Positions 30,876 to 59,990 of a DNA stretch of 64,000 nucleotides are shown here, piece by piece; the stretch's first letter is position 1, and the number at the start of each line of letters is the position of its first letter. The DNA is from Dissophora ornata (taxonomy: Eukaryota > Mortierellomycota > Mortierellomycetes > Mortierellales > Mortierellaceae): assembly GCA_025201705.1 (NCBI GenBank), contig MU616595.1, positions 1-64,000 on the forward strand. The letters are read 5' to 3'. Both the position numbers and the translations under genes were made by a program. The notes beneath the pieces are model-generated. The model did no database searches, had not been told where the DNA came from, and was given only the letters and a program-made list of their open reading frames with translations.

Positions 30876-32951
30876 ATGAATCCAACAGACTCTGCTCCTC
30901 CACCGCGCGCAATCACTTCGGCAGCACTCCGCGTCTTTTCAGTGCCCGAGCTTGCAGCTTATATCGCGCTTTACCTTCGACCCTTTGAGCAATTGAAGCT
31001 CAGTCTAATCTCAAAGGCTCTCCGTCTGGCATTCCCCCCGGCCCTCAAACTCTCGGTCTCGTCCTTCACATTCTCCACAGAAACTACCAGCGACAGCAGC
31101 AAATCTGATAAAAATAGCGATGGACAGGTTTTTGTTTCAAGCCCAAGAACTATCCGCCACCTGGCTCCTCGCGTGCGATCCCTGTACCTGGAGCTCCACA
31201 ATGGAACCAGCGACCTGAGACAGCGAGCCATGCTCAACGTCATTTTCGAGAGCTGTTCAGAATCTTTGGAAGATCTCACGATTAGGTATTGGGGGAATGA
31301 TACCAAGGTCCTGGAAGAGGTTCTTGTCAACTTGCCAGGGATCCTGAGTCTCTCAGTGCATTTTATGGCCAGCATAAATGCAATGGAGTTCCCGAAAGCG
31401 CTGACCAAGGTCAGAAGGACCATTCGGAAATTGGCCACTGAGCAGGAGAAGGAGCAGGAGCAGGATGTGGGAAAGGTTAAGAAAAAGATCCATGACCTGA
31501 AATCGCTCAAGATACAAAGCGTGATAAAGCACTATGTGAACTGGCCCGGGTTTGTAGAGATGTTGCAGTCATGCCCAGAGCTGAAGACCTTGGTCCTGAA
31601 AGATATGTCTTTCTGGAGAGCCGACGTGAGTAATGCTGTCGAAGGAGCGGAATCATGGCCTCTAGGGGACGAAGCGAGCAAGGAAGAGCAAAATACCGAG
31701 TATTTCAATTCAACATTGTTCCCAAAGCTGGAGACTCTCAAATTATCTAAGTGCAACATCCCTATCGAGCAGTTCTGGGACATGGACGAGGCCTTCCCAA
31801 GGTTGAAAGCGCTGATAATGAAGGGTTGTAGTGGTCCTTGGCTCTCTGCGATGACCGACCATTATCGTCCATCGCCTTTGGATGGTGTCACTGCAACAGC
31901 ACCTGCAACTGGAAGAGTCGCCTTTGCACAGCTGAGGAGCCTTACTTTGTGGATTGAGTTTCAGAGCGGCCGCGCCAGGATCCTATCACTGCTCAATGGT
32001 CGGCCCTACATGGAGACACTCGAAACGGATGTGCTACCGGACAAGAGGGATGGCCTTTTCGAACTCGCCGGGTATTCCTCTGGCTCACAGTCTTCTGATT
32101 CGAGCATATCGGGCGATGGAAATCCGAGTCCAGGAACAATAGCTACCAAGGGTTCAGACACAGCGACTCGGATCAGACACAAGTTCAAACGACTGGCCCT
32201 CCAAACGTATGTGTCGCCTGCATACTCAGTCGAGGAACTTGAGGAATTTTATGGCGCTCAATGCTTCCAGGAACTGGAATACGTTTATATGCAGATTGTA
32301 AGCTCTTTCTTTCAAATTTGCACGTTCGGTATCAGGTCACGATTGTTGATAAGTCTCGACATTTTTATTCTCTTCTCATAGCGCGAGCTATCGACTGGTC
32401 TATTTGCATTCGCCAAGACACTGCGACATCTACATCTTGGTGGAGAATCGTCGCGTTTGCTTCAGCACGAGGCAATGACGCTAAACCAGGTCCTTCGTGG
32501 GCTGCCCCAGCTCGAGATTCTCAAGGTCGAGCGCTACATGGATAGTTACCAAGCATTTTCTGGCTTAGGACGGGAGGCTGCTGTATCTGCGGGCGACAGA
32601 TGCGCGCCAGGCGATAACAGCGACGCCTCACAACAAGAGGAGAATACCCGAGTCGATTGGTTCCAAGAACGGCCTTTCTTAAGGGAACTCGAAATCCATA
32701 TTTGTGGGTCCACTAGTATCCTCGAATGCCCAGAGTCGGCTAGTAATGGCAAAATCTTGAACGTTTCTGAGCTTCAGAGACAAGTGATTGATCGGTTCAG
32801 GTTTTTAGAAAGAATCAAGGTGTACTTGAATCCAACTATTGCGCTACCAGAAACTGAAGAGTTAGAGTCTTGGAAGAATCAAATCTGGACGGGGCGAGGG
32901 GCTAGAGAATGCATGATCCCATGCATTGAAATGGTTCATCTTCATCACTAG
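30876..32951 (+). CDS. F-box/LRR-like protein
   Basis: Two exons, 30876-32297 and 32382-32951, phase 0, give 663 residues. The start MNPTDSAPPPR is preceded by ACAAC. An F-box-like helix pair is seen near residues 22-55 (FSVPELAAYIALYLRPFEQLKLSLISK). The rest has irregular leucine-rich repeats (LEDLTIRYWGND, LKTLVLKDMSFW, LETLKLSKCNIP, LRSLTLWIEF), with a Gly/Ser-rich linker before the intron and RHLHLGGES after it. F-box proteins are substrate adaptors of SCF ubiquitin ligases; the target is unknown. This family is expanded in Mortierella-type fungi. The gene ends only 39 bases from the 3' end of the convergent U2 gene, and a broken paralogue lies at 59295-59990. Confidence 0.8.
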
Positions 32952-32989
32952 TCATTGGGGTTTGAGTTGAGAATAAAAAGAAGAGTTCG

Positions 32990-33174
32990 GCGTACGACTC
33001 GGAGGTAGTGCGATACCGAGGACACCAGTGCCCGGCCAGATAGCAAGCCAGAGCTGGACCAGGCGTAGCTCAAAAATGAAATTAATCGATTGGTGGCCGT
33101 AGCCACCATATTATTCGATTAGAATAATAAGAACAGATACTACACTTGATCTTAGCCAAAAAGCTAGAGCGGGT
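32990..33174 (-). ncRNA. U2: U2 spliceosomal snRNA, copy A
   Basis: Read on the minus strand, the gene carries the U2 core GGCTAAGATCAAGTGTAGTA. This contains the branch-point-pairing GTAGTA, followed by CTGTTCTTA, an Sm site (ATTTTTG) and a terminal hairpin around GGTATCGCACTACC. The ends are approximate: the 5' end is set by ACCCGCTCTAGC and the 3' end about 8 bases after the last hairpin. Promoter and flanks are almost identical to copy B at 59030-59213, in opposite orientation. Confidence 0.93.
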
Positions 33175-33206
33175 AAGGAACCAAATATTTCCCCGTTTAG
33201 CGCCCT

Positions 33207-33214
33207 CTTTTATA
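33207..33214 (-). promoter_or_regulatory. TATA box of U2 copy A
   Basis: TATAAAAG lies 33-40 bases upstream of the U2 5' end, the spacing expected for a Pol II snRNA gene. The same element is TATAAAGG in copy B. About 95 further upstream bases are conserved between the copies. Confidence 0.65.
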
Positions 33215-33309
33215 CTCCTGGAAGACTCATTGGACTGCTGACTGCGGACCAAACCTACAGTGGAAATAATGTCGGGAAGGTCAGAATAGTCTCATGGTGA
33301 GCAATAAGG

Positions 33310-33911
33310 CGTGTTAGAGCCCAGTGGCAGTGTTTCTGTGTAAATTAGGACTCGCTTTTCTGAGAGGCGTGAGGCGAGGTTTCCTCTCACATTTTTTCCA
33401 AGATGGGTTTTCAGGCACCACTCGATTGAGAGCAAGATGCATGATCGGCATCGACTGGAATAAGCGGCAAGATTTCTATGCACAGAGTTGACCCGCAGAC
33501 AACTCATATGTCTCACATACACAGATATCTGTCGGTATGCTTGTGGTTTATCCCTGGATTGAAAATAGATGTGTTAAAACGCGGGGTGGTTTTTTTACTC
33601 GGCATAAAGCGAGTAAAGAAAACAGTAAGTTACTACGCGCCTATGCTTCGTGTAAAACGCGTTCAAGGCACGATGGGCAGTAGCAAGATTTTATTCCACC
33701 ATTTTAGGAAGCCATCCATCGGTCGTCATCCTTGTAGTGCGCCTTTTGGCGCCTCGATGACATCTGCGTTGATATCAACTGTAACGTGATCATAAAGCAC
33801 AGAAACCATAAAAGAGCCAAGACTCACGCAATTCCCATTCCCCCACTCCTCATTCACTTCATTGCAACAACTGCCACACTCCCCACTTTTTCAATAACTT
33901 TCGGTATCACG
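33310..33911. other. Intergenic region, no gene seen
   Basis: This lies between the U2 copy A promoter and the HAT-repeat gene. Short frames only; a pyrimidine-rich tract just before 33912 is probably the promoter/5' UTR of the next gene. Confidence 0.45.
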
Positions 33912-34313
33912 ATGTCTTTCGCTGGCACACCCCATAACGGCCCCCTCTCTGCCCAGGAGTTTTACAAACAGGCCCTCGAAGAGTCTGACGCTGGCAAGCG
34001 CCGCCGTCTGTTCGCAGATGCCCGTCAGTCGAACCCTACTTCGTATCAGCTCTGGGTCAAGGCTGCTGAGGCCGAGGAGCACTGGGGCGCAGATCAGACC
34101 AAGCTAAAGGATCTTCTGACCAGAGGTGTGACCGTCTTCAAGAACCCTGCTGGCGCAACCTGTACCGAGAACCATGATCATTCGCAGCACGGCCTCACGG
34201 GACCTAAGCCTATTGATAAAAGCGTGTGGTTGTCGGAGGCAACTGCGGCAGAGAACAGTGGCAAAGGAAAGACTGCCGCGGCACTGCACGAGGCTGTTGG
34301 CGAAGTGCTGTAA
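33912..34313 (+). CDS. Small HAT/TPR-like repeat protein (Prp6-like fragment)
   Basis: One exon encodes 133 residues from MSFAGTPHNG. The internal repeats have the half-a-TPR pattern of RNA-processing proteins: ARQSNPTSYQLWVKAAEAEE and, about 65 residues later, KSVWLSEATAAENSGKGKTA. The spacing and the Trp/Ala pattern resemble Prp6/Prp1 repeats. Those proteins are around 900 residues, so this is a mini-protein, a truncated duplicate or an independent small HAT protein. The frame is intact and the ATG context (TCACG before ATG) is reasonable. The partner is unknown; a splicing role is inference only. Confidence 0.6.
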   Translation: MSFAGTPHNGPLSAQEFYKQALEESDAGKRRRLFADARQSNPTSYQLWVKAAEAEEHWGADQTKLKDLLTRGVTVFKNPAGATCTENHDHSQHGLTGPKPIDKSVWLSEATAAENSGKGKTAAALHEAVGEVL

Positions 34314-35729
34314 AATATATAAAGCAATTAACAGCGACGCTGAAGTAGACGCCCAGGACAGGACCAAGTTGTCTTGTTCAATCATTGTCAGAGAACACCC
34401 GATGCAAACACCCATATTCCCAAATAAATCCCAAGAAGTTCAAAAAGCTCTGACAAAGTAGGACCATGGGTCACGAGCTTGATCACGCTATCAGGTGACT
34501 GGCTCAAGTATGGTGTTCCTGGAAGGGGACCCCTCAAATCTTTGACACGTAAAAAGATGTCATTTTGGCGCGATTTTGCATGACAAACCCAGGCAATCGC
34601 GTAGATACCACGGAGGAAGAAGAGCGGTCGTATCTTACATGTTACTTCATACTTTTATGCAGCCGAGGCGAGGAGGCGCAAGGCAGAGACGCGCTTGTTT
34701 GAGCATCCGCCCTGCTGTCGAAGATGGTAGAGTGGGGCCCGAATAATACGAAGAAGCCATTGTTGAGTGAAGGGGTCATCATCCTGTCTGTGTGTCCATT
34801 CGTCAGTTACTTGGAGGAGAGCTGCATGCACGAAAGAACAAAAGTGAGATTGCGCAGAAAATAGTCTTTGGTGGGGAGTGAAACTTCCAGCCGGCGGGTG
34901 CACGGTACGACATGTATTGTCGCATAATGTTTGTCGTGCCCGGCGGATAAAAGCAGGAAAAGCAGATTGATCTACACCGCTGGTTCGTACCGCCGAATGC
35001 TGGGATAGCCATTGCTGTGGCTGTTCGTTCCTCGACAGCTTCATCCGGGACGACAATTCAGAGAAGAGCCAAAAACAGCCATGTATGGTTCAGTGCAGCT
35101 TACACCACGTTGAAAGAGAAGGAAAAAAAAAGAGGGGATATATTGGAGTAGGGGTGAAAGAAAGGGGAGAGAGAGAGGGCCAAAAATGAGATCAATGCTA
35201 GGATCCACCGCTGGCAAAACAACAGAGGAACGAAGGGCAACCACGCTGCATCCTTCCCACTCTGCGAATGATCGTTGTCATTGGCACGCGGTGAGGATGG
35301 ACATTTCTGCGAAAGTGGGGCATGGGCCGATCAGTAGTCCCACGACTTCGCACCCCTTGAAATTGTGTGTCACAGAGGCCAGAACCACATTTTTTTTTGG
35401 CTCCTTTTGTTTCGACACGCCTTCCCTGTCCTTCTTTTTATTTCCCTGTCTTCCTGTTTCCATTTCAAATCCCCCATTCTCTTTCCCTCGTCTGCTCCAC
35501 ATCCATTCCCAGCCTTGTTTTAATTCTCGTTCTCCCATCCACCATCGCCACCAGCGAGCTTTACTATCCTTCTGCTGCAATCCACCCGTCCTTTACTCTT
35601 CATTACCCCTTCCCACAAACGATTGAGCCTCTGTGACCCCACTCTATTTGTCATTGTCTGATTCGTTCTACTCCGCATAAATCGGCCTTTTGCCCCTTGC
35701 TTTCTTTGTCCAGAGCTGAACAAGAACCC
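34314..35729. other. Intergenic region with one doubtful minus-strand ORF
   Basis: A minus-strand frame at 35056-34655 (133 codons) includes FVHAALLQVTDEWTHRQDDD and could be a small spliced gene: a donor lies near 35000 and an acceptor near 34822. I cannot recognise it. The remainder, especially 35380-35700, is a pyrimidine-rich leader before the bZIP gene. Confidence 0.35.
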
Positions 35730-38212
35730 ATGTCGAATCCGATGTTTGACGACTTTATCGAGCTCGACCTGCTCGACACCACCGAGACGACAAGCGATAT
35801 GTTCTCCTTCTACCTCGGTGGCGCCTCAGGACTTGACGATAGCAGTGCCGACCTTGGTGCAGCCGCAGCAGCCCTCGGCGCCACCACTGAGGATGACACC
35901 GCCTTGGCAATGGATCTGGTCATCAAGCAGGAAGATGTCTCCGACAGCGAATCGCATTTGCTCCTCGACCCATCCCCGTTGAACCAGCCGCTTGAACTCT
36001 CGGCAGACGCCCATCAGCCCGCTCTCATCTTTGGTGAACCTTCCATGACTCTTGTCAGCCCTGATCAATTGACAATCGCGCCCCAGGCGACAACGGTTTC
36101 ACCCGCCACCATTTCCTTGTCCACTGTCGTCCCTGCCCCAATTTCTGCCGATACATCTAAAGCTTCATCAACAACAGTATCAACCACGGCTGCTGCTGCC
36201 ACTTCCGCTTCTCAAAGTATGAAGATATATTCTTTTTCGCTTCTATCATTTCGCGCCTGCAACGATTAAGAGATTGATCGCGGCTACGGCAGGTGTCAAT
36301 GTCAGTCTTTAACATGTCTTAATTACCTACAATTTTTCTCCTGTAGACGCCATCTCTGTGAACACATCTGCAAAGTCCTCTGCCGCGAAACGATCGAGCC
36401 CCGAGCCTGCATCTGCAGCCCGAAAGCACGCCAAGACTGAGTCTGTATCAAAGTCAAAATCTTCCACAGCGTCATCGCGAAAGTCCTCCACATCCTCTGC
36501 CTCCAGCAGCTCAATGACACCGGCTACTGCTAGCTCTACCACATCCACTTCTACATCATCAACGCCGCCATCGCCTTCGACTGCATCGCCAGAATCCACG
36601 GCAGAGTCCCTTACGTCGACTGCCAACACAACCCTCTCTCCGGCAACACTGCAGTTCTTGCTGCAGCAGCAGGAAGAGACTCCACTGATCCCTCAGCTGT
36701 TCACAGGCAAGCTCTCAAGGGAGGAAATCGAAGCTACACTAGCGCGTCTGCTTGAATCCACAAAGCATTTGATTTCAAACTCGGACGAACTTGTTAATAT
36801 CAAGGAAGAAGCCCCTGCGTCGGATGACGAGTCGGATGACAACATGGAAGGTATCGAGAGTGGCGAGATTGCGGAGCAGACCCATGGCCTCAAGACCCAG
36901 CCTGGGATCAAGACGGACGACATCCCCTCGTCCACGGATCTGAAGAAGATGACGTCGAAAGAACGCCGACAACTTCGCAACAAGATTTCTGCCCGGAATT
37001 TCAGAGTCAGGAGAAAGGGTGAGTTCGACAAGCGTCCTGGACATTGGGAAGATTTCACTGATAGTTTCCATCAATGTTTATGTGTTTGGATCAAAGGAAG
37101 ACCTGTACACACATCAGATGATGGTCTTTGCGCGCGTGCATTTCCCCCTAGTCACCCCTCTCCTTGTTCCAAATGAGCTCTGTGCAACACTAAATCGCTT
37201 AATGATCACTAACTCCAAGTCTCCTCCTTTCCTGTGCAAAACAGAATACATCTTCACACTGGAGGGCCAGGTGCTGCAGCACAAGACAGAAGCAAGACAT
37301 TTGCGCGAGGCCGTGACGCTTGTGCAAGAAGAGAATCTACGACTTAAGAGCGAACTCGAGCAGGTTAGACGCCTATTGGCGGAAACGGCGATCGCCAATA
37401 GCGCAGCGGCTGTTGGAGTTTCTGCTGCTGCGGCATCGTCGGAGCAAGCACAGTTGGCGGGATCCGTCACGCCCCTTTCAAAGGAGAATCAAAGCCTGTT
37501 GACCTCAATCCTGAAGGGAAATGTGAACCCTGGCGCCAAGAGCAATCTGACTCTGACATTGACTCGACCCCAGTCACCGATCCTTACTCCCAACCTGCAC
37601 AAGGATGTTCCCAACTCTTCATCGGGCAGCACGAGCCAAAGCTCGTGGAAGGACAAGAACCCAATCATGGTCCACACGACCTTGGTCCCAGAGATCTGCT
37701 TTGGCGACGAGTTTCAGTTTGGCAGCAAGCGTGAAAAGTCCAAGGATGATGACATGGTCGATAGGCCCTGGATGAAGCTGGATGGTGTCGCTCCTGACAC
37801 AAAGTCAAGCCCCAACCCCTTCTGGGCTTCTGGGATTGTGTTTGAGCTGATGCAGACTTTCACGTGTATGACATTGAGTATGATGGATTCAGAAGCCGAG
37901 GTTGAAGCAGCGGAGAGGATTGTCAGCAGCCGGGTTGAGTCGGAGGCAGAGCTTGACTGGGAGCTGCAACAGAATCTGTGGGCACTGACTCAAGTTGAAG
38001 AGGAGGAGGACATGACGGAGGAGCAGATCCAATTGCTCTACGACCTTAGCCAGCTCCAGATCTCGAACTCTCGGCTAGAATCTCCAGCGACGATCCAAGA
38101 GGACCCCAACATGCTGGAGTGGCTTTACGAGTCGATGATGGCGCGGCTAGTCGACATGGATCTACAGAATAGCCAGGATCAAACATCGTACACTTCGTGT
38201 CATGCCGTGTGA
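35730..38212 (+). CDS. bZIP transcription factor
   Basis: Three exons, 35730-36216, 36347-37018 and 37245-38212, give 708 residues with intron phases 1 and 1. The first exon is an acidic activation-type region (MSNPMFDDFIELDLLD). The second is Ser/Thr/Ala-rich and ends in the basic region MTSKERRQLRNKISARNFRVRRK near residues 363-385. The intron falls exactly between the basic region and the zipper. The zipper continues as EYIFTLEGQVLQHKTEARHL, with heptad leucines to about residue 430. The signature N-x-x-SAR-x-F-x-x-RR identifies a fungal bZIP. The C terminus contains a Gln/Glu-rich helical segment. Targets are unknown. An AATAAA-like run near 38437 could end the transcript. Confidence 0.9.
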
Positions 38213-38450
38213 TCTATATACACTCTTATCTCTTTCTTTTTTTTTTCTTTCTCCAAGACTCGATTAGATTTCTGTTACTTTCCTTGTTACATTTCTTTCG
38301 TCCCTTGTTCTTCTTGTGTACAGCGTTCTCTTTCCCCCCTCTCTTTATATCTCTTTGCGTTTCTTGTACTTTCTTTATCGTTCCTCCCTTGTGCTATAAT
38401 ATCTGACCCATACTCGCCACTTTCTTTTCGTTCTAAAATAAAAAAAAAAT

Positions 38451-38494
38451 ACACAAACAAGCATGGTAAAACACAAACAAGCATGGTAAAACAC
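38451..38494. repeat. 20-base tandem duplication
   Basis: Two perfect head-to-tail copies of ACACAAACAAGCATGGTAAA followed by ACAC. They lie directly after the probable poly(A) site of the bZIP gene. Confidence 0.8.
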
Positions 38495-38683
38495 TTGTGG
38501 TATTTGAATATTTCAGGGGTCTGGAGCAAGTTTGGAGTGGGGCGTAAGACGCGGAGATCCGGTACCAAGAACACAGTTTGGAGTAACCTTAAATTGACCA
38601 TGCAAAAATCTCGCGACTCCGATGCCCAGAGTTCCAGTAGGTAAGCAGATAGGCAGGGGGATTGTCCAAATGTGTTCACGGGA

Positions 38684-38687
38684 GGGA

Positions 38688-38719
<32 letters not shown>

Positions 38720-38780
38720 AAGAGAGAGAAGGAGCAATTGAGATAATGACAACTCTGGCGATGGTGATGGTGATGGTGAT
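38684..38780. repeat. GA-rich and GATGGT microsatellites
   Basis: A GAGA/GAAA run spans about 38684-38730, and a (GATGGT)n run occupies about 38759-38780. Low-complexity ORFs on the opposite strand (poly-Ser/His/Leu) are by-products of these repeats. Confidence 0.8.
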
Positions 38781-38937
38781 GACAACGATGTGATGATGTG
38801 ACAACAAAGAGAGCAGTTTCATCTCGTTTTTCACATTCCAGATGCCCTTCCCTACTGAACATCGCATTCGATATAAGTTACCGTGCTATCCACAGCAACG
38901 ATGATAGAATAGCCTTTTAGCACCCAGCACTATGAAG

Positions 38938-38945
38938 TATAAAAG
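38938..38945 (+). promoter_or_regulatory. TATA box of the PIG-L-like gene
   Basis: TATAAAAG is followed by a long CT-rich tract with a (CT)n run at 39045-39066, a common fungal start-site context. The first good ATG of the gene is at 39357. Confidence 0.45.
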
Positions 38946-39356
38946 GAACGACTTCCTTTCTTTTCTTTCTATTCAATTGCTTCCAGCTCTCCTTCTTCTC
39001 TCTCCTTCTTCTCTCTCGACTCCTTACTCGTTTCTGCATTCATTCTCTCTCTCTCTCTCTCTCTCTGCCATTCACACTTGTTGCATTTCTCATTCTTTTT
39101 CTTGAATCAACAAAAGCATAATAAGTGGCAGTTAAGCACAGCCAATTCTCCCCTGAATCAAGGGAGAACCCAAAATAATCAATCTTCATCAACGCGCGAG
39201 CGAAGGACCACAACCCCTCCCCCCGTTACATTTCCGTCACCACACTCCCATCACTACATCACAGCACTCCCTTTTTATTTTCTCAGCGGCTTCAACTACC
39301 GGCACAAAACAATAGCATCAAGCAGCGCCACAAAGTGGTGTCCAGAAATATACAAA

Positions 39357-41559
39357 ATGGCGCATATTTCATCAATTTCAAATTCAGGCACAGCGTGTAC
39401 TACATGTACCAGCACAACAGCCCAAACGGATATTGCAAACGCCCTTTGCCTACGCCCGCGCTCCCGCCGTGGCCCCCGACAGCGAACACTGCTGGTCAGT
39501 GTATTAAGTGCTCTGGCATTGACGCTTGTCATCGGCAGCAGCAATGAGCCGCTATCCGGCACACTCAGTGTCGCCAATGCCCTCCCCCATTCTCTCGCTC
39601 AAATCAACATCCCCGTCGCCATCGCTACCGACGACGTGTCTCAAGAAGATCAGAGGGTCCTGGATAGTCACTCCTCTGTTTCTGTCACTCATATTCGCGA
39701 CGATCAGAGGGAGCAAGACACGGACGATGCGCTCCGATACGTAAAAGCCAGTGCATCGGCAGACAGCGGTCGCCGTCGTCTGCGGGACCCTCATGCATAT
39801 CGGCAGAATCGCCCCGACAGTGAGAAGGTGGAAGAAGGGCAAACCGAGGTGTATCGTTTTCAGAGAAGGTTTTTGGTTCTGGCGTCGAGGGTGTCGGGTA
39901 AGAGTATCGGACAGGTGGAGCAGATCGCGCAGAAGTATAGCGAGGTTCTTGAGAAAGAAGCAGATGTCCATTTACTGCAGCAGCAGCAGGAAGAGACGAA
40001 CACGAATTTCAAGAGACTAAAGCCGAGTGATAGTAATGGTAGTAGCGGAGAATCTCAGACCAGCATAGTCGGTTACGCTTGGGTACCGACGCGTGGTCAT
40101 CGAGGACACAGCGTTTACGACGAGGATGGGAAGCTGCGGTCCGCGGGAGTCCAGGTCCTGGAGGATGGCCCTGTTGGGTATAAGCGGGTGCCGAAGAAGA
40201 CGCCGGCCATCTTTTACGTGCCACACCAGGACGACGATGCGCTTGCCATGGCTCTTTGTAAGTGCTCTCACAGATCTTATATTGTGATCTCATGTGAGAA
40301 GCACCGTTTTGGGACAATTTAGCGTTATTGCGTCTGACCTTTTCTTTCTTTTTATAGCAATTCGAGAACACGTTGAATCAGGCCGGAAGGTGATTGTGCA
40401 CCTGTACTCGGACGGGATAAACGCTCTCCTCCGCGACCTCGTCGCTGGCGACAAAGCCTGCAGCGTCCCGCACAAGGCCCACCAGTACAACCTAACGCTC
40501 GATGACGAGGTCACCGGACGCACACACGAGTTCAGGAACAGTCTGAAGGCTATGGGCGTGTCCGACGAGAATATCTTTGAGACCGGCTGGAGCGATGTAG
40601 AGCCGTATACGGACTATGACGCGTTTAAGGAGAAGCTGAAACATCTAATTGCGCGATATGAGGCAAAGGTAAAAAAAGTGCACAGAGCAGAAGGTGAAAC
40701 GGAGGCCATGCGATATTGCGATTTCTTGTGTATTTATGATGAGCATTTTATATTTTCTTCTGCAAACAGTACCCTGGAGCATCACACAAGTGCATCAGTG
40801 GAGAGTACGACAGAGACGGCTCTGGCAGGAACCCTACCCACCGTGCATGCTGGGACGCTGCGACAGATCTTCTGGATGAACACCCGCGTGGCTTGCCTAC
40901 ATCGCGACAGCTCTGGGACTTGTAAGTTTTTAAGTTTTTGAAAGAAAAAAAAAAAAAAAAAGTATTCACACGACGTCATTTTTTAACTTTTCTTCTCTTG
41001 TCTCTCAAAAATAAAAAACAGCCGCTTTTACAGGACTTATACGTTTTACAAGCCTCCAGATCTCCGCTCTGCACAATACATCAAAACTCTTCCCAAATTC
41101 CTCAAGTTCAAGCAACAGGCCTTGGACCAGTACAAGCGTTTAGAGCCGGAGGACGGCGAGCTCGCATGGGGATACCATTCGGTGCAGGTGTTGATCGACG
41201 CCAGCTACACTGATCCACATCTGTATATCGATATGCTCGATACTGACCCTCTCAATCCACAGACCTGGCTCCCGAAAGGACAAAGAGCGGGAGAAAGAGG
41301 TCAAGGAATATTGGGAGGTGTTCACTTGGAACAAACTGTCAATGGCACGGAGATCTTGGTTGTCTATCAACAACAGCAGCAGAAGCTCCAACAAGCTGGA
41401 TCTCCTACGGCGGTGGATCCTGGTGTGGATGCTGGCGGTGAAGCATGGAGTGAGTCGGAAATAGCGAATCGACAAGCGTTTGTGGCGTCATTGGAGGCGG
41501 CATTCAAGAAGCCGAATGGAGAGGGGTATGGAAATCACCTTCCGAGGTTCAAACGTTAG
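39357..41559 (+). CDS. PIG-L/LmbE-family de-N-acetylase-like protein, membrane-anchored
   Basis: Four exons: 39357-40257, 40358-40668, 40770-40921 and 41022-41559, giving 633 residues. A hydrophobic segment (LLVSVLSALALTLVIGS, residues 45-61) after a basic stretch is a likely signal anchor. The catalytic block IFYVPHQDDDALAMAL near residues 285-300 carries the H-x-D-D metal motif of the family. VIVHLYSDG follows, and a later HKCISGEYDRDG plus NPTHRACWDAA supplies a second His. The family hydrolyses N-acetyl groups from amino sugars (GlcNAc-PI in GPI synthesis, or related substrates). The long disordered N terminus and C-terminal part differ from the roughly 250-residue GPI enzyme, so I would not call it the GPI12 orthologue. 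Polyadenylation-like AATAAAAA lies near 41600. Confidence 0.8.
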
Positions 41560-42946: not shown

Positions 42947-43155
42947 GAGGGAAAACAAGGAATATTCGAGAGGATCTCTGAAGCAACTGTCTCCCGTGAA
43001 GTACTCAGAGAGATGAAATAAGCCAAGTGTAATATAATTTTTTTTTAGAGAAATAAAAAAAAAGAAAATGCGAATGTCTGGTCTAGATGTCCTCCTTGCT
43101 TTAAACCACCAACAGGGGGTATAGTATTAAAATACCAAAAAGGATCTTTCGTGGT

Positions 43156-49080: not shown

Positions 49081-49124
49081 GCTCTATGTCAGGTTATGCC
49101 ATGATTCATCGACACTCATCAATC

Positions 49125-49388
49125 AATATTCGCCAGTCAATATATTCACCGGTCAACATTCACCGGCCAACATTCACCGGTCAACGTTCACCGGTCAACA
49201 TTAACCGGTCAGCATTCACCGGTCAACATTCACCGGTCAACATTAACCGGTCAGCATTCACCAGTCAACATTCACCGGTCAATAATCACCGGTCAATAAT
49301 CACCGGTCAACAATCACCGGTCAACAATCACCGGTCAACAATCACTGGTCAACAATCACTGGTCAACATTCACCGGTCAACATTCCAG
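49125..49388 (+). repeat. 14-base tandem satellite containing ACCGGT
   Basis: About eighteen head-to-tail copies of a 14-base unit, consensus CAACATTCACCGGT, with point variants such as CAACATTAACCGGT and CAATAATCACCGGT. Because 14 is not a multiple of three, an open frame through the array shows a 14-residue period; it is a by-product, not a gene. The palindrome ACCGGT recurs every unit. Confidence 0.92.
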
Positions 49389-50220
49389 ACTGCGTTTGAT
49401 TTTAAAGGTCGGTAATTAACTTCACCAACAATACATGTTTTCACTGCGGTGAAAGTTCACCGGTTAAAATCACTAGTCACTCATGAATTAAGGTCAGGGT
49501 CGGAATGGAGTCGCGAGATAAGGATGTTGCCACGTTTGCTCCATTAGGGTGGCATAAAGGTGCGGCTCGATTAACATGAGACACTGCGTCGCGTCCCAAT
49601 GCATCTCGTCTAGGCAGCTGTAGTCGGCGTCCAATAGTCCCCTGGACAGCATGCATGGCTTTGCCTACGGTTTCTAGAATACTGTTATCGACCAGTAACT
49701 TCCCTCAAAGCATGTTAGCACCACAATGGAGTCGTTGCCCATCGACTCTCTCAGGATTGGCCTCTTGAGTACCGCCATCTAGGCACGCAAGTCTTGAGGT
49801 TATAGCCTTGCACCACAACCCCCAAGCTTGTCGCCAGACCGAATCGGTGTCTTAGAAATCATAGAACGTCATCATAGAACCTCAGTCTGCAATAAATCCA
49901 TACGTTGTCTTCTCGTCCTATACCTCACCCTCCCTCTAACTTCCTAGCCCTGGTTCATCTTGCTTCATGTCAATAGCTCTTCAGTCAATAAACTCATATC
50001 CTCATATCCGTAGACTTGATCTTGTTGCAATACACCATACACCGCCACCCCCCACCCCCAACTACACATATCCATTTTAATGGACTACAATCTCTTCAAC
50101 TAGAATGATGCATAAGCCAATGGTGCTACGCAAATCATTTCTTGAAACAGCTATACTTTTATTCCATTCTTTCGGCAGTGAGAAAATGCAGTTGAGGATT
50201 GGAGAGAGGGAGTATTTCTA
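49389..50220. other. Interval downstream of the satellite, possible solo LTR
   Basis: TGTCAGGTTATGCC at 49087 and a region with CAATAAACTC near 49986, followed by GTTGCAATACA ending near 50034, have the look of the ends of a retrotransposon LTR that contains the satellite. I see no matching target-site duplication and no internal retroelement genes, so this is only a suggestion. Confidence 0.25.
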
Positions 50221-50222
50221 GT

Positions 50223-50830
50223 CAATTTTATCGGAGCTGACATTGCGCTTTCAGTCGTCGCCAACGCTACCTCGGTCTCCAACTTCGCGAACGTCGCCGC
50301 TGGATACTTTCAATTTCGAGACGAGATCGTCAGGGACATTCACAAGGAGTACCGGCGGAAAAACAAAGGGGCTGTGTAGTAGCCTACTTCCATCTTCCTG
50401 GACGTATTTCTGGACGTCGCTCATACTGTCCGGTGGTAAAAGCGGACAATGTACCTTCTCATACTAATGGGAGGAACATGGTGTTAATGGTTAGCGCATG
50501 AAAAATGGCCCGGAATGCGTTTTGTTAGTCGTATAAACATGCTAAGCTCCGAGGGTCGACAGATAATTCACAGGTGACGAACCGAGCTTCCTTACTTGAT
50601 TTGCCGGTTGATGAGTTGGTTCGAGTGATGATTCTTGCGACTATTCTTAAAGTGTTTGCTAAGATTCTAGAGTCTTGAAGCCTTGGGTGAGTTTTCGATG
50701 TCGCTGAACTTGAAGCGGATTGTGAAATAGATTCTACTTTAAAATAAAGCTGCTTACCTCGAGTGTGAAGCGCAGAAGGTTATAGACGGAGTGCAGAAAG
50801 TTGAAAAAAAAGCTGACCACTTCTTGTCGT
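50223..50830 (-). other. Possible spliced gene fragment
   Basis: Three minus-strand segments join in phase 0 through good splice signals. One ends with LHSVYNLLRFTLE at a GTAAGC donor near 50758. A short one lies between an AATAG acceptor and a GTAAGG donor near 50595. The last starts YEKVHCPLLPPDSM after CCCATTAG near 50467 and stops near 50270. The family is not recognised and no clear start exon is found; it may be a remnant. Confidence 0.25.
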
Positions 50831-52574
50831 CAAGCCATATTTATTTAATGTTATCTCGCCATGCTTCGGAAGTCTCTAAAATGCGATGGTATGGATTGGA
50901 ATTTCAGGGCGAATCTTTCAGTGGCAAGCGCATAGTCATAAATCTCCTACAGGTGGGCAACTCCGGGAGGTCGGGTTAATACACTCGAGGAGTGACCCTG
51001 CATATCATTGATAGATCTCATCTTCCGAGTTGCCAGATATGCCTAAATCTGAATCCCGAGTTCAGTCTCCACGATATACGTAGTCAAGCACATATAAGAG
51101 GCATCTTGTTATCCAAATGTATGAGCGCGTTTTATTGCGGCGAGGCTTGGTTGAAGTGAACGATTTCCTGTCTGACCTGTCGGGACTAGGGCGCTGGCAT
51201 TTCTTATTCTACAGGTTGCTCTTGAAGAACATGCAAGAACGCGTGGACCAAGTCAAAATTTCGTCTTCATATTGAAGAAATCTCCATCATCCCCGGCAGT
51301 AACCTGATTTTCTCGAGTTTATCAACGTATCGTACGCGAGGATTACGACTTCACGACTGGGGGCTATGGCTTGTCAAGATCCTGAATCTCATCAATATTA
51401 ATTGTTAAGCCCGCGCCATGTTTTCTGAGGATTTGGGAGCTGTCCATGGCTGCGAACGAATGGCACAGAAACTGTGCCAAGCATGCAGGCGGCTTCCCAC
51501 CTCCCATGTCGCTGTATAGCACAATGCAGTGTACTTGGCCCAGATGATGCGACAGTAGTCATTTATTTTTTTACGCCAGGCTGCTTCCCTGGTTGCACCG
51601 CAATATGCCAGGCGTATACGCGCTTGTGTCCTCTCAGACGAGGACAGGCAATCATGCAATCATACGGTATATGGTATTAAAACCAAAACAAGTGTAAAAG
51701 CAGGAATCAAGCAAGGAAGAAATATATGTACAAGCTACCTCCGATCCCTAATCACGTTTTTTTCCCTGTATGGCTTGCTCTCCAAGGACTTACTGTTATT
51801 GCTGATGTTGTTGTTGCCACTGAGTGCAGGCCAGACAGATCTCCTTAAGCTTGAACAGGAGGCACTTCAAGCAAGACCACCCTGGCTTGGCCTCCTATCT
51901 ATATCTAACCCTGCCTGTCATCGCCATGGCAGTTCTTTCATCAAGACAACCTATTCTGCGAGTGGGAAACCTTCAGCCTGACTCTGCCGAGTTTGTCGGT
52001 CTTAGAACCCTGTGGCCACTTTCTTAGCCACCCATCGCACCTCGCATACGACATGTCTCTGCAGTTCTCGTGCATTGTCCCAGACGACAGTTTTGTTGAT
52101 ATTCTCGAGCTTCTCGGGGCGGTTCCCGCACCTGCTATGCATCACGCTTGAACAATTGCAGCATCGTGCGTGCGCTCTGCCTGTCGTTGAGCCGGCAGAG
52201 TAGAAGTGCGGCGATCGCCGCGAGCCTCAGCTCCAACGACAGTGCTGTTGCCGTTACCATTTCCGCCCTGACTGACATGACCCTCCAGGGCGATGAGTGT
52301 GATTGCTCTCGGAGCTTATTGCAAAGCATGCTGGGGTGATCTTGAATGAAGGGAAGCTATTAGTCTATGGTGTTCAATATTTGATATCAGCATGCGGAAG
52401 TGGAGCGGTTAGCCAAAAAAAAAAAAAGCGTGTGACTGTGGGTCCGAGTGTAGCTGTCGCCTGCTCCACCGCGTACATGCAACACTTTGTCTCTCTGTTT
52501 CTCACCTCTCTGCTTCCTTTTCTTTATCCCTCTTCCCACCTTTCGACGGCCACTCTCAACACCACTTCTTCAAC
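50831..52574. other. Gene-poor interval, right part
   Basis: Only short frames with no domain signal. Near 52320-52135 a minus-strand frame of 64 residues is helix-like (LSLELRLAAIAALLLCRLND) but isolated. An A-rich run is at 52414-52426. The CT-rich stretch at 52480-52570 is the leader of the EF-hand gene. Confidence 0.4.
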
Positions 52575-53346
52575 ATGTCCGATATCTTTCCTGAAGAAAT
52601 CAAGCAGGCTTTTGCCCTCTTCGACCCTCAGAACACTGGCAAGATCGAGCCCCGTGTCTTCCACGACTTCTTGAACGCAAGTGATCCCCCACCATCGTCC
52701 TCCATCTCTCTCCCCCTCTCCCAGCCCTCCAAGTCAATGATGATCGCTTCCCCGCACTCTCATACAGATTGACGATACTCGAGAATAACAGCAAGTCTAA
52801 TTTGAACATGGTGTTTTCTATCAATCATTGACACTTCAGACACTGGGCGATGAACAACTCAAAGCGACCATTCGTATCCCAAATCACGCTCTGGGTCTCC
52901 AGGAGTTCACGGACCTCATGAACCGCTACAACAAGGATGAGCATAAGGATCCAGAGGAGCCCTACCGCCGTGCGTTCGAGTCGATTAATAGGGATCGCTC
53001 GGGACATGTGTCAACTCAAGAGCTCAAGGCTGCTCTGGATTCGTTCGTGGGACCCAATGTCCTTTCTGAGGTAAACATCCATATGCTGGATAATTTTTGT
53101 TTCTGTTTTTGTTGTTCCTGCACAATTGCAGCTGGACAATTATGACCGAATATATCATTTCACAGACGCCCTCTTCGAGAAATCTAAAAGCACTAAATTT
53201 TGCAACTCTTTTTATTTGTTTAGGTTGATGTGGATGAGATCATCACTGAGGGAGACGTTTCTGGTGACGGTCGCATCACCATTGAAGAGTTCCTGAAGAT
53301 CCTCCACAAGAGCGAGAAGAAGCACCGCGGCGAGTTCACTCTGTAA
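52575..53346 (+). CDS. Calmodulin-like EF-hand protein
   Basis: Three exons, 52575-52676, 52840-53070 and 53224-53346, give 151 residues, the length of calmodulin-class proteins. The reading frame joins only if intron 1 uses a GC donor: TTGAAC|GCAAGT...TTCAG|ACACTG, giving DFLN|TLGDEQLK. The nearby GT would leave the frame broken. Three Ca2+-loop-like segments are visible: DPQNTGKIEPRVF, NRDRSGHVSTQEL and DVSGDGRITIEEF; the second hand is degenerate (NHALGLQEF). The last loop has the best coordinating set (D-S-D-R-E). The protein is more divergent than calmodulin itself and could be a centrin/calmodulin-like or myosin-light-chain-like regulator. AAATAAAC near 53575 is a plausible poly(A) signal. 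Confidence 0.88.
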
Positions 53347-53840
53347 AAAACAAAACTAAAACAACAGCGCTCCTCCCCCCGCCAAAACCCTGAAAACGAA
53401 CACGAATAGAAAGCAACAAGAGAAACATTACAGCAACAAGGAGATATTTGTCTATCCTTCTGCTCTTGCCTTTTAGTCATTTTTGGTCCAAGCTTGGCTC
53501 AAAGAAGTCGTGATTTTGGGTTTTTGCGTATTGTAATTACCCGCTCATATATTTCTTCACCCCTTCTCCTTCTCGAAATAAACACAAGGAAAAATTCAAG
53601 TCGAAGACGCAACGGGCCGAGATGGTGGCTAGACTACACACGATGCATCCATGTCCTGATATAAATTTTCTCTTTGTTTACGCCTTTGTGATGAAGGGCT
53701 TTGCGTTGTATTTTTTCCGTCAACAAACGCAGAGTAGTGGGCAAGATCATTCTTCCGTGAAATCAGCTTTATCCACCATATGCCAAATAGAGCATCAGTG
53801 CCACATTTTATTACATGTCGTTTATTCCAACACTATTGTA
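53347..53840. other. Convergent 3' region
   Basis: This holds the 3' UTRs of the EF-hand gene and of the oppositely oriented SLA2 gene. A polyadenylation-like AAATAAAC lies at about 53575. No gene seen. Confidence 0.5.
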
Positions 53841-56800
53841 CTAGTCGTCGCCTTGATGGTACGAGACCTTGCGCATCTCTCCCAGAACCCTTCTCGCCAG
53901 CGTCAACTCCTTCTCTAGCTTCAAGATCTCGACCTGCTGTGTCATCTCTTTGATCTTGAACTCGTGTGCATTCATGTTCTGGTAATCCACCGCGTTCTCA
54001 TGCTCCTTCATCTCTCTATCCATAATCGTCTTCACCGCCCTCACAAGTGCCCGGGAGGCTTCTGTCACCGCCTTGGACGCCCGCTCTAGATTATCTTGGG
54101 CCTTTGACATAAAGGTGGCCCTGACACGCGATGCTGAGACGAGCTGAGCTGTCGCTGCGGCGACTTCGTTCGATGCCACCAAGAGCTGTTCCATCGAATG
54201 TGTCTTTGAGATCACACCGTCTGCAGTCTCGACCAACATCGTTGTCGCCATCGCAACAGCCTTTGCTGCGGAAATCAGTCCCTCGGTCCAGCGGTGGTTC
54301 TTCTTGTAGAACGCCGCGTTTGTGGAGGTGCCACGGTCTTGAGCCACGGTCTCTTGCTGTGAAATTGTGGCACACTTGATCAAGTGTCCAATCGCCTGCA
54401 TCATCGCCATGGCACTCTCCAGGATTGACGCGTTCACCTGGAGTTCGATTGCAGACAGGTTATCGTTCTTGGGCTTCGAAATCAAGGCCTGGAGACGGGC
54501 TGTGGCCTCTTCAATCGTGCGAGCGGCATTACCCATCTCCATCTCGACTACATCGCCCAGATCCATCTTGGAAGGATCTAGCTGATTGCCCTTCGGGATC
54601 AGGTGCTCCGCAGCCTTGGCCAAACGTTCCATCGCAGCCTGGACATTCTCGTTTGACCGCTCGATCGTCTTGATGCTACCATCGGTTGAGAGACCGCCCA
54701 GGCGAGCGGAAGTGACGTTGGTGAAGAATTCTTGCGTCGCCACAGCAGAAGCCTTGGCATGTTTGACAAGATCCTCAACATCCTCGTCCCTCTTGGCGAG
54801 GCGGGTGATCCCCTTGGCGTTTCCGAGCACATCTGCAATGGTTTGTGAAAGGGTCAGGGCTGCGCGAATGGCCTCGACCTGGTTACCTTCAGCAGAGGGA
54901 TTGAGATAATGCAGCAGTGCCAATTCAAACTCCGTGGAGGCTGTGTGAGCCTTCTCGATCATCGAGAGCGTGAACTCAGGTGTAGCGTTTTGATTACCGA
55001 GCTGGGTTGGCGACTCGAGGTGGTAGATGCTTTCGTCGACCTTGCTGATGCAGGTTTCCAAAATTGAATCTGTAGTAGCAACATGAGATTAGTTAAATAT
55101 AATTCTCCCTAGGAGGACGTGCGGAAAGCAATGGCTGTCTAAAACGTGAAATAGCGGGCTTACCAAAGATTTGCTGCATCTTGCGCTTGTGCGAGCTCAT
55201 CATGTTATCCACGCGCTCCTGCAACACGGACGACTTTTCAGTCTGGCCTTCCTTCAGATTAGCGAGCTCGAGCAACGTCTCGTCCAGACCGCTCTCCAAG
55301 ACCGCCTTTTCTTCTTCGTTCTCGATCTGCATGCGCTCAATCTCGGCCTTTTGGTCATCGACCTGTCGCTGCAGCGAGTCAATCTCGCGTTGGCGTCGCT
55401 ATTTGAACGCACACGATAGGATGCAGAGGATCAGTACCCTGAGAACAGGAAAGAAGAACAGTTAGAAGCAGCTCAAGCCTTACGTTAGCCAGATCCTCGA
55501 GGTCTTGCTTCTCCCTGTTAAACTTTGCGACCATGGCTCCGACCTCTGAACTCTTGGACCGTCCCAGATCCTCAACTCGTCCATTCGCCATTTCAAGATC
55601 TCTCTTCAATCTCGCAACTTCGTCATTTTGTGTGTTTTGCCATCTCAACAGCTCGTTCCTGGCACGGTCACGTTCACGGACCATATCAGCCATCTGTAGC
55701 GTCTTGTCCTTGATCTCCTTCTGCATCTTCTCCATCTTGTCGACTGCCTCCTGAGCAGAGTTCGCCTTGAGCTGGACAGTCTTGAACTTGCCGAGGAGGT
55801 CGAGATGCTCCTGACGGAGTTGGGAGTAAAGCTTTGCGAGAGCTTCGTACTTGGACTTCCAGATATTGATTTGATCTATTATTGAGATGATCATAAGTGC
55901 CGATTTAGTAAAGGCTATGGCTAGGAATTCCTTCCAAGATTTTTGTGTGGCGAGAAACAGTACCTTGGATGCTGCGGATCATCTCATCCTTGGAGGCAAG
56001 TTGCTGTTGCGCATTCATGTTGATCAACTGCATTTCCTGCTCGAGACCTTTGACTCTCTATTGTTTTGTTTGTTGGCATAACGAGAAAAAACACGCAGCA
56101 ATTCGTCAGAATCCGCCAGGAGTCCATAACATAACAAGATGAGAAAAAACGGACGACTTACTCTATCATACTGATCAATGAGCATCTGGTCTCGTTCATA
56201 TTGTCCTCGCAGCGCCAACACATTCTGCTCCAATTCCACCAACCGCCCCTCGGCCTGTCTTTGCGTCTGCTCCCTCGCCAGCTGTTCCCGTTGAAGCCTC
56301 TCCCTCTCCATCTGTAATTTCTTTTGTTCATCAAAATCCTGTTGCAGTCTCAGAGCCTCCATCTGCTGTTGCTGCTGTTCCAACTCCCGCTGCTGCTGCA
56401 ATCGCTGTTGTTCCAATTCATACTCCCTCTGTTTCCTTGCAATCTCCCGTTGCTGCTCTGCCCAGTCCACGCCAGGAGATTGTGGTGGCGATACACGAGC
56501 GGGCGGATTGGGCGTAACAGCTTGGCGTGTCGGCAGCAATGGTGGAGAATCACCACCGATCAGGGTTGGAGGATCTTGTGGAAGCTTGGGGACACTGATG
56601 AGACTAGTCAAGTATTTGAGATTGGAGCATTCGTAGTAGAACTTGAGGAGGGCATAGTGCTGGGCATTGTAGCGTTGTCGTAACAGGATCAAGCCTTCAG
56701 GGTCATTGGTGCCTATAGCAGTAGCAGTAGTGAAGTCGACGGTTGGATTTCCTGGTTTCTCTTGTTTGCTCTCAAACAAAAAACATTGAAAACAACAGCA

Positions 56801-58135
56801 AGACTTTACGTTTGTGCATTGCGCGCAGCATGCTGGTGGCGAATTGGTAGATAGCATAGGACTCTTGAACGAGAGGCACGAGCGCAGCAATACGGCATTC
56901 ATTGTTGGACGAAGGTTGGAAATTGGCAAAGATCAGCTTCTGGAACTGATCTATCTGATCCTGAAGATTCATCAGATCGTTAATCGTCTCATATCTACGC
57001 ATGTCAAAAAAGAGCAAAACCGAGAGCGGCCTATGGTCAGCATCCTGCTTCCTTGACAATCTGTCCAAGTTAACGCTATTCTGAAAACCAGAAAATAACT
57101 GCCTTACCCTTCATTTGGGTCATCGATTCCTTTCAGCGAGATGTATTCGTTGTAATCAAATGTTCCGTTGAATTCAGTGTGGTTGTTGTGGTATCGGAGC
57201 TTCGAGTGCAAAAAATCGACGTAGGAGCGAATCAATGTCGCATAGCCTGTAATAACGCAAACCCAAGTACAACATGAACATCCGTCGTTAATAAGAGATA
57301 GATAGGAAGTGCATCTATCCTGATTGCAATCACATGTGGTATGCCAAGAACACCCAACTTGCCTCGGCTGCCAAACTGCTGGGTGGAACGAGCGCATTGG
57401 TCTAGCCAGTCGGTCTCCTGTTGCACATCCTTAAGCACCTATTTTTGCGTCAGCATGATACAAATACACGTCAATGTAACAAGTGTGGATGGTTAGTAAA
57501 AATTTCACTACATCCACCAAGTAAAAATGAAGAACGCTTGCAACTGACAGATACAAGTAAGCAAGTTGTAGCCATACAGTAGGATGTCCCTCACGAATAA
57601 TCTTGTGGACAGAGATCAGAGCCTTGAAGGTCTGGATCTCGTCGCCCAGCATGGGTTGTGTCCGGAATCCCTGCCAGACCGATGCAGACGAGCGATAATC
57701 CCAAGTGTAGACAATACAGGCTAAGAAGCAAGAGCGAAATTGAGGCCACGCAAAACAATGGATTAGCACATCGTTGGATCTTCAACAACTACTTCTCCCT
57801 TATACCAGCCGCTCCTCCCTCCCTTTTCCATCTCATGTATTTCCTAATCCCGAAAGACATGGAAAAGATACTGGAGAATGAAGTCAACACGCCACAGCCC
57901 AACCCCCACCCAACTCAGCCTTCCTAGGAAAGTCGACAGTCGATGACTTTTCATAGCATGTTACACCACAGCCTCTCTTCGCCCTCAGTCCAGGTCTTTC
58001 AACTGCTTTGTCCCTCGACATACCTCGAACATGCTTCTGCTTGGGTGCAGTTTCTTCTGGGCTGGTGGCCTTTTTGATGTGCAAATGGAGTTCAGCTTCT
58101 GCCTTCTCCCTGTTCAGCGGACGGTGCATCGCCAT
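53841..58135 (-). CDS. SLA2: Sla2/End4 (HIP1R) endocytic adaptor
   Basis: Ten exons: 58135-58024, 57720-57578, 57438-57363, 57246-57108, 56994-56810, 56712-56162, 56057-55964, 55875-55484, 55398-55164 and 55069-53841, giving 1051 residues; all phases agree. The ANTH domain spans the first five exons (KKATSPEETAPKQKHVRACI, WDYRSSASVWQGF, FNGTFDYNEYISLKG). A Pro-rich linker, a Gln/Arg-rich coiled coil (about 380-690) and a C-terminal talin-like I/LWEQ actin-binding module follow (WTEGLISAAKAVA, RVRATFMSKAQDNLERAS). Sla2 links PIP2 and clathrin coats to actin at endocytic sites. Intron 3 uses a GC donor (CGAG|GCAAGT...TTACAG|GCTATG), required to join FGSR-G-YATLIRSY. Length is between yeast Sla2 (968) and HIP1R (1068). 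Confidence 0.95.
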
Positions 58136-58897
58136 GATGGAATAACAGTTCTAGTTGGGGTCGGTGTTGAAGAGCCCTCTTCCTTTTTATGCTCCTGGAC
58201 TGATTTAATTCACTTTCCGAACGAGTTTGAGGCACAGCGTCTACAGTTGGGGCCAAAAAGGGGGGAATGCAGAAAACGTGTAAGTTCTCCATTCATTCCG
58301 TGTTCAAAGACAGCAAAGTGTAAAACTGCACACCTCCATGAACGTGTTCCATACCGCGTGGGAATCCAACTGAGGTTTGATATAAAAAACAGGATGTGTT
58401 AGTCGAGAACTACGCGGAGAGAGTGCGAGGCGGGATAAAACGGGTTATAGAAGAACAGAGAAAAAGAGGAATGGAGAAGAAAAGAATGAGAGAATGGGAA
58501 TGCGGGGTAAGACAGTGAAGCAGTAGACAACAAAAAAAAAGTCAGGATGATAAGCGCAACACGCTTCTGTGTGAGACAACACACGCAGGAACATAAAATG
58601 TTCGACTGTTGTGCATTCATTTACTATCGATTCCTTTGTCTCTTTTGTTTACGAACGGGCATCATGACGTCTATCGCCCGTCATAGCTCGCTTATCCTCA
58701 ACATGGGTATCCGAAGACGGAGAATAGCCCTTCGTAACAGGATGTATATGATTATTAAGTCGCGCAATTGCATACGGCGCTCAACTGATCAGTCCGCAAA
58801 ACGGCTGTTGATGAGAGGGAGGACCCTTGGGCAAGCCGCACGGATCGCGCCGTGGGCTTTTTTTAGTCAAATGCGACCTTGAAAATTAAGCAGTACC
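58136..58897. other. Intergenic region, no gene seen
   Basis: This is upstream of SLA2 and of U2 copy B. Short basic plus-strand frames near 58547-58882 have no domain signal. Confidence 0.4.
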
Positions 58898-58989
58898 AAA
58901 TTGCTCACCATGAGACTATTCTGACTTTCCTGACATGGTTTCCGCTGTAGGTTTGGTCCGCAGAAAGCAGTCCGATGATATTCCAGGGG

Positions 58990-58997
58990 TATAAAGG
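58990..58997 (+). promoter_or_regulatory. TATA box of U2 copy B
   Basis: TATAAAGG lies 33-40 bases upstream of the U2 5' end, at the same place as TATAAAAG in copy A. The flank from about 58898 is near-identical to copy A in inverse orientation. Confidence 0.65.
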
Positions 58998-59029
58998 AGG
59001 GCGCTAAACGGGGAAATATTTGGTTCCTT

Positions 59030-59213
59030 ACCCGCTCTAGCTTTTTGGCTAAGATCAAGTGTAGTATCTGTTCTTATTATTCTAATCGAATAATATGGTG
59101 GCTACGGCCACCAATCGATTAATTTCATTTTTGAGCTACGCCTGGTCCAGCTCTGGCTTGCTATCTGGCCGGGCACTGGTGTCCTCGGTATCGCACTACC
59201 TCCGAGTCGTACG
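59030..59213 (+). ncRNA. U2: U2 spliceosomal snRNA, copy B
   Basis: The plus strand carries GGCTAAGATCAAGTGTAGTA from about 59046, then CTGTTCTTATTATTC, stem-loop sequences, the Sm site ATTTTTG near 59130 and the terminal hairpin GGTATCGCACTACC. By eye the transcribed part is the same as copy A throughout. Ends are approximate. The gene is followed by the convergent F-box pseudogene, as copy A is followed by the intact F-box gene. Confidence 0.93.
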
Positions 59214-59294
59214 CCGAACTCTTCTTTTTATTCTCAACGCAAAAAAAATAAGTACAACAAGACACGTTTATCGTGGATGACATATCGTAGTCTA

Positions 59295-59990
59295 TTAGTC
59301 CATTTCCGGTTCATCATCCCGTATGATAAACTGAATCTGTAGGGTATTGTTGCCGTCGTCTCCTCGCTCCTTCCAAAACTCCCTCTCCACACTTGTATCG
59401 TTAGGACTTCTGGAAACCTAAACCGATCTACTACTTGTCGCTGCGATCCATCACATATTTCTACTTTCCACTTGACGAGCGTCCAAGCTCCCGAGACGAA
59501 GGTGTTTCAACATATTGGCGAACGGAATAAAATGAGTATGAATATTACTTACAGTATGCACAAAGACGTATTCCAGCTCTTGGAAACATGCAGCGCTATA
59601 CAATCGCATAAGTTCCTCAATCAAGTACATGTGCATTTGCAGAGCAATACGCTGGAACTTGTGTCGAGGCGCAACAGCTGTATTAGTATTTTTGGAAGTC
59701 ATTGTCTCGAAATCTATGTTCCTGACGGGGAGAGCTTAAAAAGTTCATCTCTATCACTCAGCCTCAAATCAGTTTCGAGAGCGGATAGGAAGGGCATGAC
59801 ATGAGCATGGGTGTCGCAAAACAATAGATAGTAGACTTGGTCGGGACTGCACAACATCCAGCTGTCCAATTGTCCAAGTGTAGACAGGCGCTTCTCCCCC
59901 GGTTATTGCCTTGAACTTCACTGGTAACTACACCAGCGCCTGCAACCGAGCATCGGGATCGAGATACATCAACGGTCATAACTGCAATAT
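59295..59990 (-). pseudogene. Broken paralogue of the F-box/LRR-like gene
   Basis: Minus-strand segments match the C-terminal third of the intact gene at 30876-32951. FLSALETDLRLSDRDELFKL corresponds to its YMETLETDVLPDKRDGLFEL and runs into a stop. HKFQRIALQ and ACFQELEYVF match HKFKRLALQ and QCFQELEYVY. NMLKHLRLG matches KTLRHLHLG after a short gap where the intron was. RQVVDRFRF matches RQVIDRFRF. The frame then shifts before EREFWKERG and the end LQIQFIIRDDEPEMD at 59295. An internal stretch (VLRGLPQLEIL in the parent) is missing. At least two frame breaks and a deletion make it non-functional. Confidence 0.78.

Follow-up and report, generated by a model that had tools for sequence, protein, structure and literature searches.

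Two identical U2 small nuclear RNA genes beside an F-box-type gene and its decayed copy in a probable inverted duplication of Dissophora ornata

Gene duplication in which one neighbour has become a pseudogene is an instance of birth and death. Here, we analyse a locus of this kind in the soil fungus Dissophora ornata (Mortierellomycota), found in the first 64,000 nucleotides of contig MU616595.1 (assembly GCA_025201705.1). This whole stretch is called the window below. The locus consists of two U2 small nuclear RNA (snRNA) genes, copies A and B, an F-box-type protein gene next to U2 A, and a remnant of the same protein gene next to U2 B. As in birth and death, the protein gene of copy B is truncated and decayed; the difference is that the RNA gene beside it, which was duplicated together with it, is unchanged. 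The best reading, and in our judgement a fairly probable one, is that of an old inverted duplication in which one protein copy died and both U2 genes were kept by purifying selection.

The closest described systems are multi-copy snRNA genes and inverted repeats. According to one study, paralogue sequences suggest that all multi-copy snRNA genes evolved in concert, and the RNU2 work of Pavelitz et al. is cited there (PMC4291461). As far as concerted evolution is described in these sources for the primate RNU2 tandem array and for insect snRNA paralogues, the likeness is that the U2 copies of D. ornata are alike within the genome and that their surroundings differ. However, D. ornata has two inverted copies 26 kb apart and no tandem array, and the case is known here from one genome, whereas it is the comparison with relatives that defines concerted evolution. 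Human Y palindromes, for which conversion between the arms of inverted repeats is described (PMC3723533), resemble the locus in having inverted, near-identical copies on one chromosome. In D. ornata, in contrast, identity is confined to a run the size of a gene amid decayed sequence, and conversion is only possible. A literature search on snRNA copies, promoters, concerted evolution, gene conversion and the species returned no Mortierellomycota U2 genes among the titles and abstract starts listed, with subscription papers mostly outside its reach.

The U2 block and the F-box-type remnant

The window contains two full-length U2 genes, mutually inverted and 26 kb apart, copy A at 32981..33174 on the minus strand and copy B at 59030..59223 on the plus strand. 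Both are found with the Rfam model RF00004 at equal scores (128.7 bits, cut-off 46) and span positions 1-192 of the 192 positions of the covariance model. In the model alignment, read by eye, both contain GUGUAGUAUC and AUUUUUGAG, which we take to be the branch-site pairing stretch GUAGUA and the U-rich Sm-type site of U2. The D. ornata genome is a draft of 31.4 Mb in 968 contigs, and the contig of the window is 89,655 bp long. A genome-wide search for U2 gave two matches, i.e. copies A and B only (46 candidates scored), and the searches for U6, U5, U4 and U1 gave one match each (47, 46, 41 and 41 candidates scored); none of the 14 control genomes gave a match, i.e. these searches are without a positive control.

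When the window is compared with itself, positions 33305..32961 of copy A align in inverse orientation with 58900..59243 of copy B, and 332 of the 345 columns are identical. This U2 block is the strongest repeat among those listed for the window. The near-identity of the U2 copies in the original prediction, made from the sequence of the window, is borne out, as the RNAs of the two copies, 194 nt each, do not differ in a single letter; the start of the block, placed about 120 bp upstream of U2, is corrected to 131 bp. The longest identical run is 242 bp (32966..33207 on the minus strand in A, 58997..59238 on the plus strand in B), and it reaches 15 bp beyond the RNA 3' end. One base separates the run from TATAAA, which in U2 A is located at 33209..33214 (minus strand), at -40 from the first base of the model, with 0/6 columns differing from B. 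Twelve of the 13 differences fall within 33279-33208 of copy A, upstream of the run, one lies at 32965, just past it, and none is inside. Random placement of 13 differences did not produce a 242-bp run in any of 200,000 trials. The upstream promoter blocks themselves, 33208..33305 (minus strand) in A and the similar 58900..58996 (plus strand) in B, differ at 12 of 98 columns (11 substitutions and one gap).

The protein gene of copy A lies on the plus strand, convergent with U2 A. According to the splice model, exon 1 (30876..32297, residues 1-474) is followed by an intron of the form GTAAGC...AG (32298..32381) and exon 2 (32382..32951), with the stop codon TAG at 32949-32951, 29 bp from the 3' end of U2 A. 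The spliced protein of 663 amino acids (aa) is identical to the database protein EDD21DRAFT_363213 [Dissophora ornata]. The Pfam F-box domain has no match in this protein at an E-value of 1 or less. UniRef names the orthologues P0003 and P0004 F-box domain-containing, and they score 20.4 and 13.5 bits against the Pfam F-box cut-off of 20.5; the putative F-box identity of gene A comes from its relatives only. An AATAAA at 32972..32977 on the plus strand, inside the 3' flank of U2 A, reads as a possible poly(A) signal of this gene. If it is used, the end of the F-box-type mRNA would possibly overlap U2 A in antisense.

Next to U2 B, a tblastn search with the 663-aa protein detects three pieces with strand and order as expected: residues 377-398 (59794-59729), residues 421-506 (59705-59454) and a third piece that begins with residue 606 at 59443. 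At 68.9 bits, the best of them lies above the maximum of 26.2 obtained with 500 shuffled versions of the B stretch, i.e. a chance match is rejected. When the same search was run on 57 tiles of the window, with five tiles around gene A excluded, two tiles tied with the B match at 68.9 and the one ranked after them had 25.0. On the minus strand, 10/22 residues are identical to A for residues 377-398 (59729..59794), 26/50 columns for residues 421-470 (59565..59705), and 10/12 residues in a local alignment of residues 606-617 (59408..59443). In the alignment with A, a GTAAGT at 59547..59552 (minus strand) occupies the position of the intron donor of gene A. Neither the N-terminal residues 1-376, which include the F-box part, nor the roughly 100 residues that separate the second piece from the third are detected in B by tblastn, and the longest listed open frame over the pieces on their strand is 83 aa; B is therefore a truncated remnant.

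Apart from the query itself, a search of the D. ornata genome with the first-exon protein of A lists B (E 3e-9) and, on contig C166, a gene (E 1.5e-6) that matches another part of the A protein than B does. An independent F-box gene at B is rejected, as B is the best match of A elsewhere in the genome. Similarity confined to U2 is rejected as well, since colinear F-box pieces are shared beyond the U2 3' end. The original prediction had named similarity in the transcript only as the outcome that would speak against it; the alignment shows otherwise, with shared flanks and an F-box match. The similarity was also expected to run into the last third of the F-box gene. Parts of residues 377-617 of the 663 are indeed shared, with interruptions, and the homology ends at about 59794 instead of reaching 59990. 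The wider flanks of the two copies, outer as well as inner, have short matches only (best E 0.026), so the detectable duplication consists of the U2 block and the 3' part of the F-box gene. Taken as a whole, the colinear order, the strand, the shared intron donor and the position of B as the best match of A elsewhere support the prediction of an inverted segmental duplication in which the protein copy decayed.

Age of the duplication, selection and gene conversion

In the history that we propose, a segment comprising a U2 gene together with the 3' part, or more, of the convergent F-box/LRR-like gene would have been duplicated inversely, 26 kb away on the same chromosome. The protein gene of copy B would then have become a truncated remnant, and both U2 genes would have retained the complete RNA along with its TATA box and the 3' flank nearest to it. 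Purifying selection on both U2 genes would account for most of the preserved unit, and ectopic gene conversion, acting occasionally between the inverted copies, may have removed the changes that remained.

The F-box pieces provide an estimate of the age. Over 81 aligned codons, A and B are identical at 51, 65 and 48 of the first, second and third positions, respectively. The duplication is not recent, because the third positions match in only 48 of the 81 codons. Position 1 changes nearly as often as position 3, and position 2 less, which fits a relaxed, decaying copy. Ten of the 17 four-fold sites are identical. In these 81 columns, gene A has an identity of 46/81 with B, 45/72 with D. globulifera and 44/67 with Mortierella sp. 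GBAus27b. Where A and B encode the same residue, the codons are identical in 30 of 46 cases compared with 17.7 expected at saturation, i.e. the silent sites are not saturated. Regarding the direction, the orthologue model of gene A in AD094 starts with a stretch that resembles the open reading frame (ORF) 30151-30642, which lies a short way upstream of gene A (the similarity scores 85, at most 63 in 500 shuffles). This suggests that locus A keeps its ancestral neighbours, and from this sequence context we infer that locus A is probably the original.

Several points weigh against an old duplication preserved by selection. The silent distance between A and B, about 0.6 changes per site, is a lower bound, since the F-box pieces were chosen for alignability. 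A tree of B, A and four orthologues, built from the 81 columns, leaves A and B unjoined with bootstrap values of 47 and 26 percent, and given this small and poorly resolved tree the duplication could predate the species split. Selection and conversion are judged from the D. ornata genome alone. Finally, the U2 copy number may be underestimated if the draft assembly collapsed identical copies.

The original prediction suggested purifying selection or conversion acting only on the RNA gene. This is right in outline, and the preserved unit exceeds the RNA. By functional part, 11/91 columns differ upstream of TATAAA, 0/6 in TATAAA, 1/34 between TATAAA and the RNA, 0/194 in the RNA and 1/20 in the 3' flank. 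In addition to the RNA, the unit thus includes the stretch from TATA to the RNA and 20 bp on the 3' side; the promoter upstream of TATA belongs to it in a looser sense. The contrast between the RNA and the block upstream of TATA is clear (p 2e-6). The absence of changes in 194 RNA positions fits selection alone if U2 evolves at 2.6% of the silent rate or less.

It is also possible, though in our opinion rather unlikely, that gene conversion is the main cause, i.e. that the inverted copies underwent repeated homogenisation between roughly the TATA box and the 3' flank, where selection alone would have left some differences. This would agree with the 242-bp run, which is unchanged also at 48 positions outside the RNA (0/48 compared with 12/98 upstream, p 0.009), and with the observation that the 3' half of U2 can change over long times. 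For the latter, a scan of viral contigs for the U2 of relatives gave no matches, and a scan of genome contigs gave three loci, all eukaryotic U2 in records titled bacterial metagenome-assembled genomes; at 27/85 and 24/87 aligned positions the 3' half of the D. ornata U2 differs from two of these, a rough yardstick. However, the 0/48 test is biased, as the edges of the run were set post hoc by the first differences. With functional edges (TATA to RNA plus 3' flank) the comparison becomes 2/54 against 11/91 upstream of TATA, p 0.13, and this loss of significance lowers the weight of conversion. Moreover, the unchanged RNA needs merely a relative rate of the size given above. The probability of two or fewer differences in 54 flank positions is 0.03 at the upstream rate and 4e-10 at the silent rate. 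The U2 flanks are therefore far from neutral, yet their similarity does not clearly exceed that of the remaining promoter. Selection and conversion are not separable from this identity profile, and conversion is possible.

That identity increases abruptly on entering the U2 block would also be expected if the 345-bp block alone had been copied recently and the F-box similarity came from an older, separate event. We find this quite improbable, because the F-box pieces adjoin U2 with the same convergent order, orientation and intron donor, B is the best genome match of gene A, and two separate events would need to land together. An assembly artefact, either a misplaced U2 copy or misjoined haplotypes, is harder still to believe. 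What speaks for it is that the assembly is a draft of 968 contigs. However, both copies lie within the same contig of 89,655 bp, their flanks differ on either side, 13 columns distinguish them, and the F-box remnant of B is listed nowhere else by the genome search. An old inverted duplication with both U2 genes under purifying selection is our preferred reading.

Promoters and 3' ends of the snRNA genes

Both U2 copies are probably transcribed, a prediction made from their sequences. The TATA box is at -40 in U2 B, at -39 in U1 (C252:3249-3412), -41 in U4 (C295:6137-6275), -42 in U5 (C623:1362-1476) and -34 in U6, where the brackets give the contig and position of each gene. The spacing in U1, U2, U4 and U5 (-39 to -42) compared with U6 (-34) may separate the polymerases. 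An upstream motif beyond TATA that is common to the snRNA genes was not significant, as 18/300 and 13/300 shuffles reach its score.

The 3' flanks of U1, U4, U5 and U2 B share a 13-mer like TTCAACGAAAAAA, located 9-18 nt past the end of the RNA model (46/52 letters). In U2 B it is the 3'-box-like element CTCAACGCAAAAA at 59233..59245 on the plus strand. A shared 13-mer of this quality was obtained in 0/500 shuffles, 0/2000 two-base-block shuffles and 3/2000 draws of A+T-rich DNA from the window. In U2 A the best fit to the element is 8/13 at the matching place, 32959-32971 on the minus strand, i.e. the element is eroded. The core word TTCAAYGAAAAA has 19 exact sites in the genome and the reversed word 13. 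Two of the 19 are behind snRNA genes (U4 and U5, the source of the word), one is near a ribosomal RNA match and 16 are without an Rfam match, so that the core word does not mark snRNA genes in particular. Fungal U3 (RF01846), sought in the genome as an independent test of the element, was not found in a search without a positive control.

In one review, the metazoan snRNA 3' box is quoted as GTTTN0-3AAARNNAGA and the Integrator complex is described as restricted to metazoans (PMC9006982). By eye, this box is not in the 3' flanks of U1, U2, U4 and U5, where a different shared word, like TTCAAYGAAAAA, is present. The genome encodes an orthologue of INTS11 (C361 883-2790), with 762.5 bits to INTS11 compared with 319.2 to CPSF73, and the CPSF73 and CPSF100 genes are on other contigs. 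The C-terminal model of INTS9, IntS9_C (PF21382), was not found in the genome by a search without a positive control. The 120 best of 2187 matches include proteins that already carry the name INTS11 in databases, from D. ornata and many Mortierellaceae and also from some Mucorales, Glomeromycota and Zoopagomycota. INTS11 in D. ornata is already annotated and hence no new discovery. Its presence in the genome makes a 3'-box-like signal plausible.

From these sequences one could imagine that the U2 genes make the same RNA under split control. The 3'-box-like element of B would be read by an Integrator-type nuclease (INTS11); A would have lost most of the element, its 3' flank doubling as the poly(A) and end region of the intact, convergent F-box-type gene. 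The copies might then differ in 3'-end formation or timing, and conversion would keep the transcript identical. We regard this scenario as improbable.

Other features of the window and meaning of the locus

A direct repeat in two pieces, 26063-26341 and 29338-29715, about 3.3 kb apart, lies just outside copy A (74% identity over 231 columns and 87% over 45). Upstream of U2 B, minus-strand ORFs at 53844-56929 contain an I/LWEQ domain (53844-55061) and an ANTH domain (56027-56929), like the actin-binding Sla2 family. Another set of direct repeats, at 49109-49385, has offsets of about 114 and 170 bp and 81-83% identity.

The event is ordinary in kind, with a neat internal clock, and leaves general views unchanged. 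In a fungal phylum that has received little study, one duplication carried both an RNA gene and a protein gene, and a single clock applies when the fates of the two are compared. With the genomes of relatives, the locus would let selection be told from conversion at a two-copy snRNA locus.

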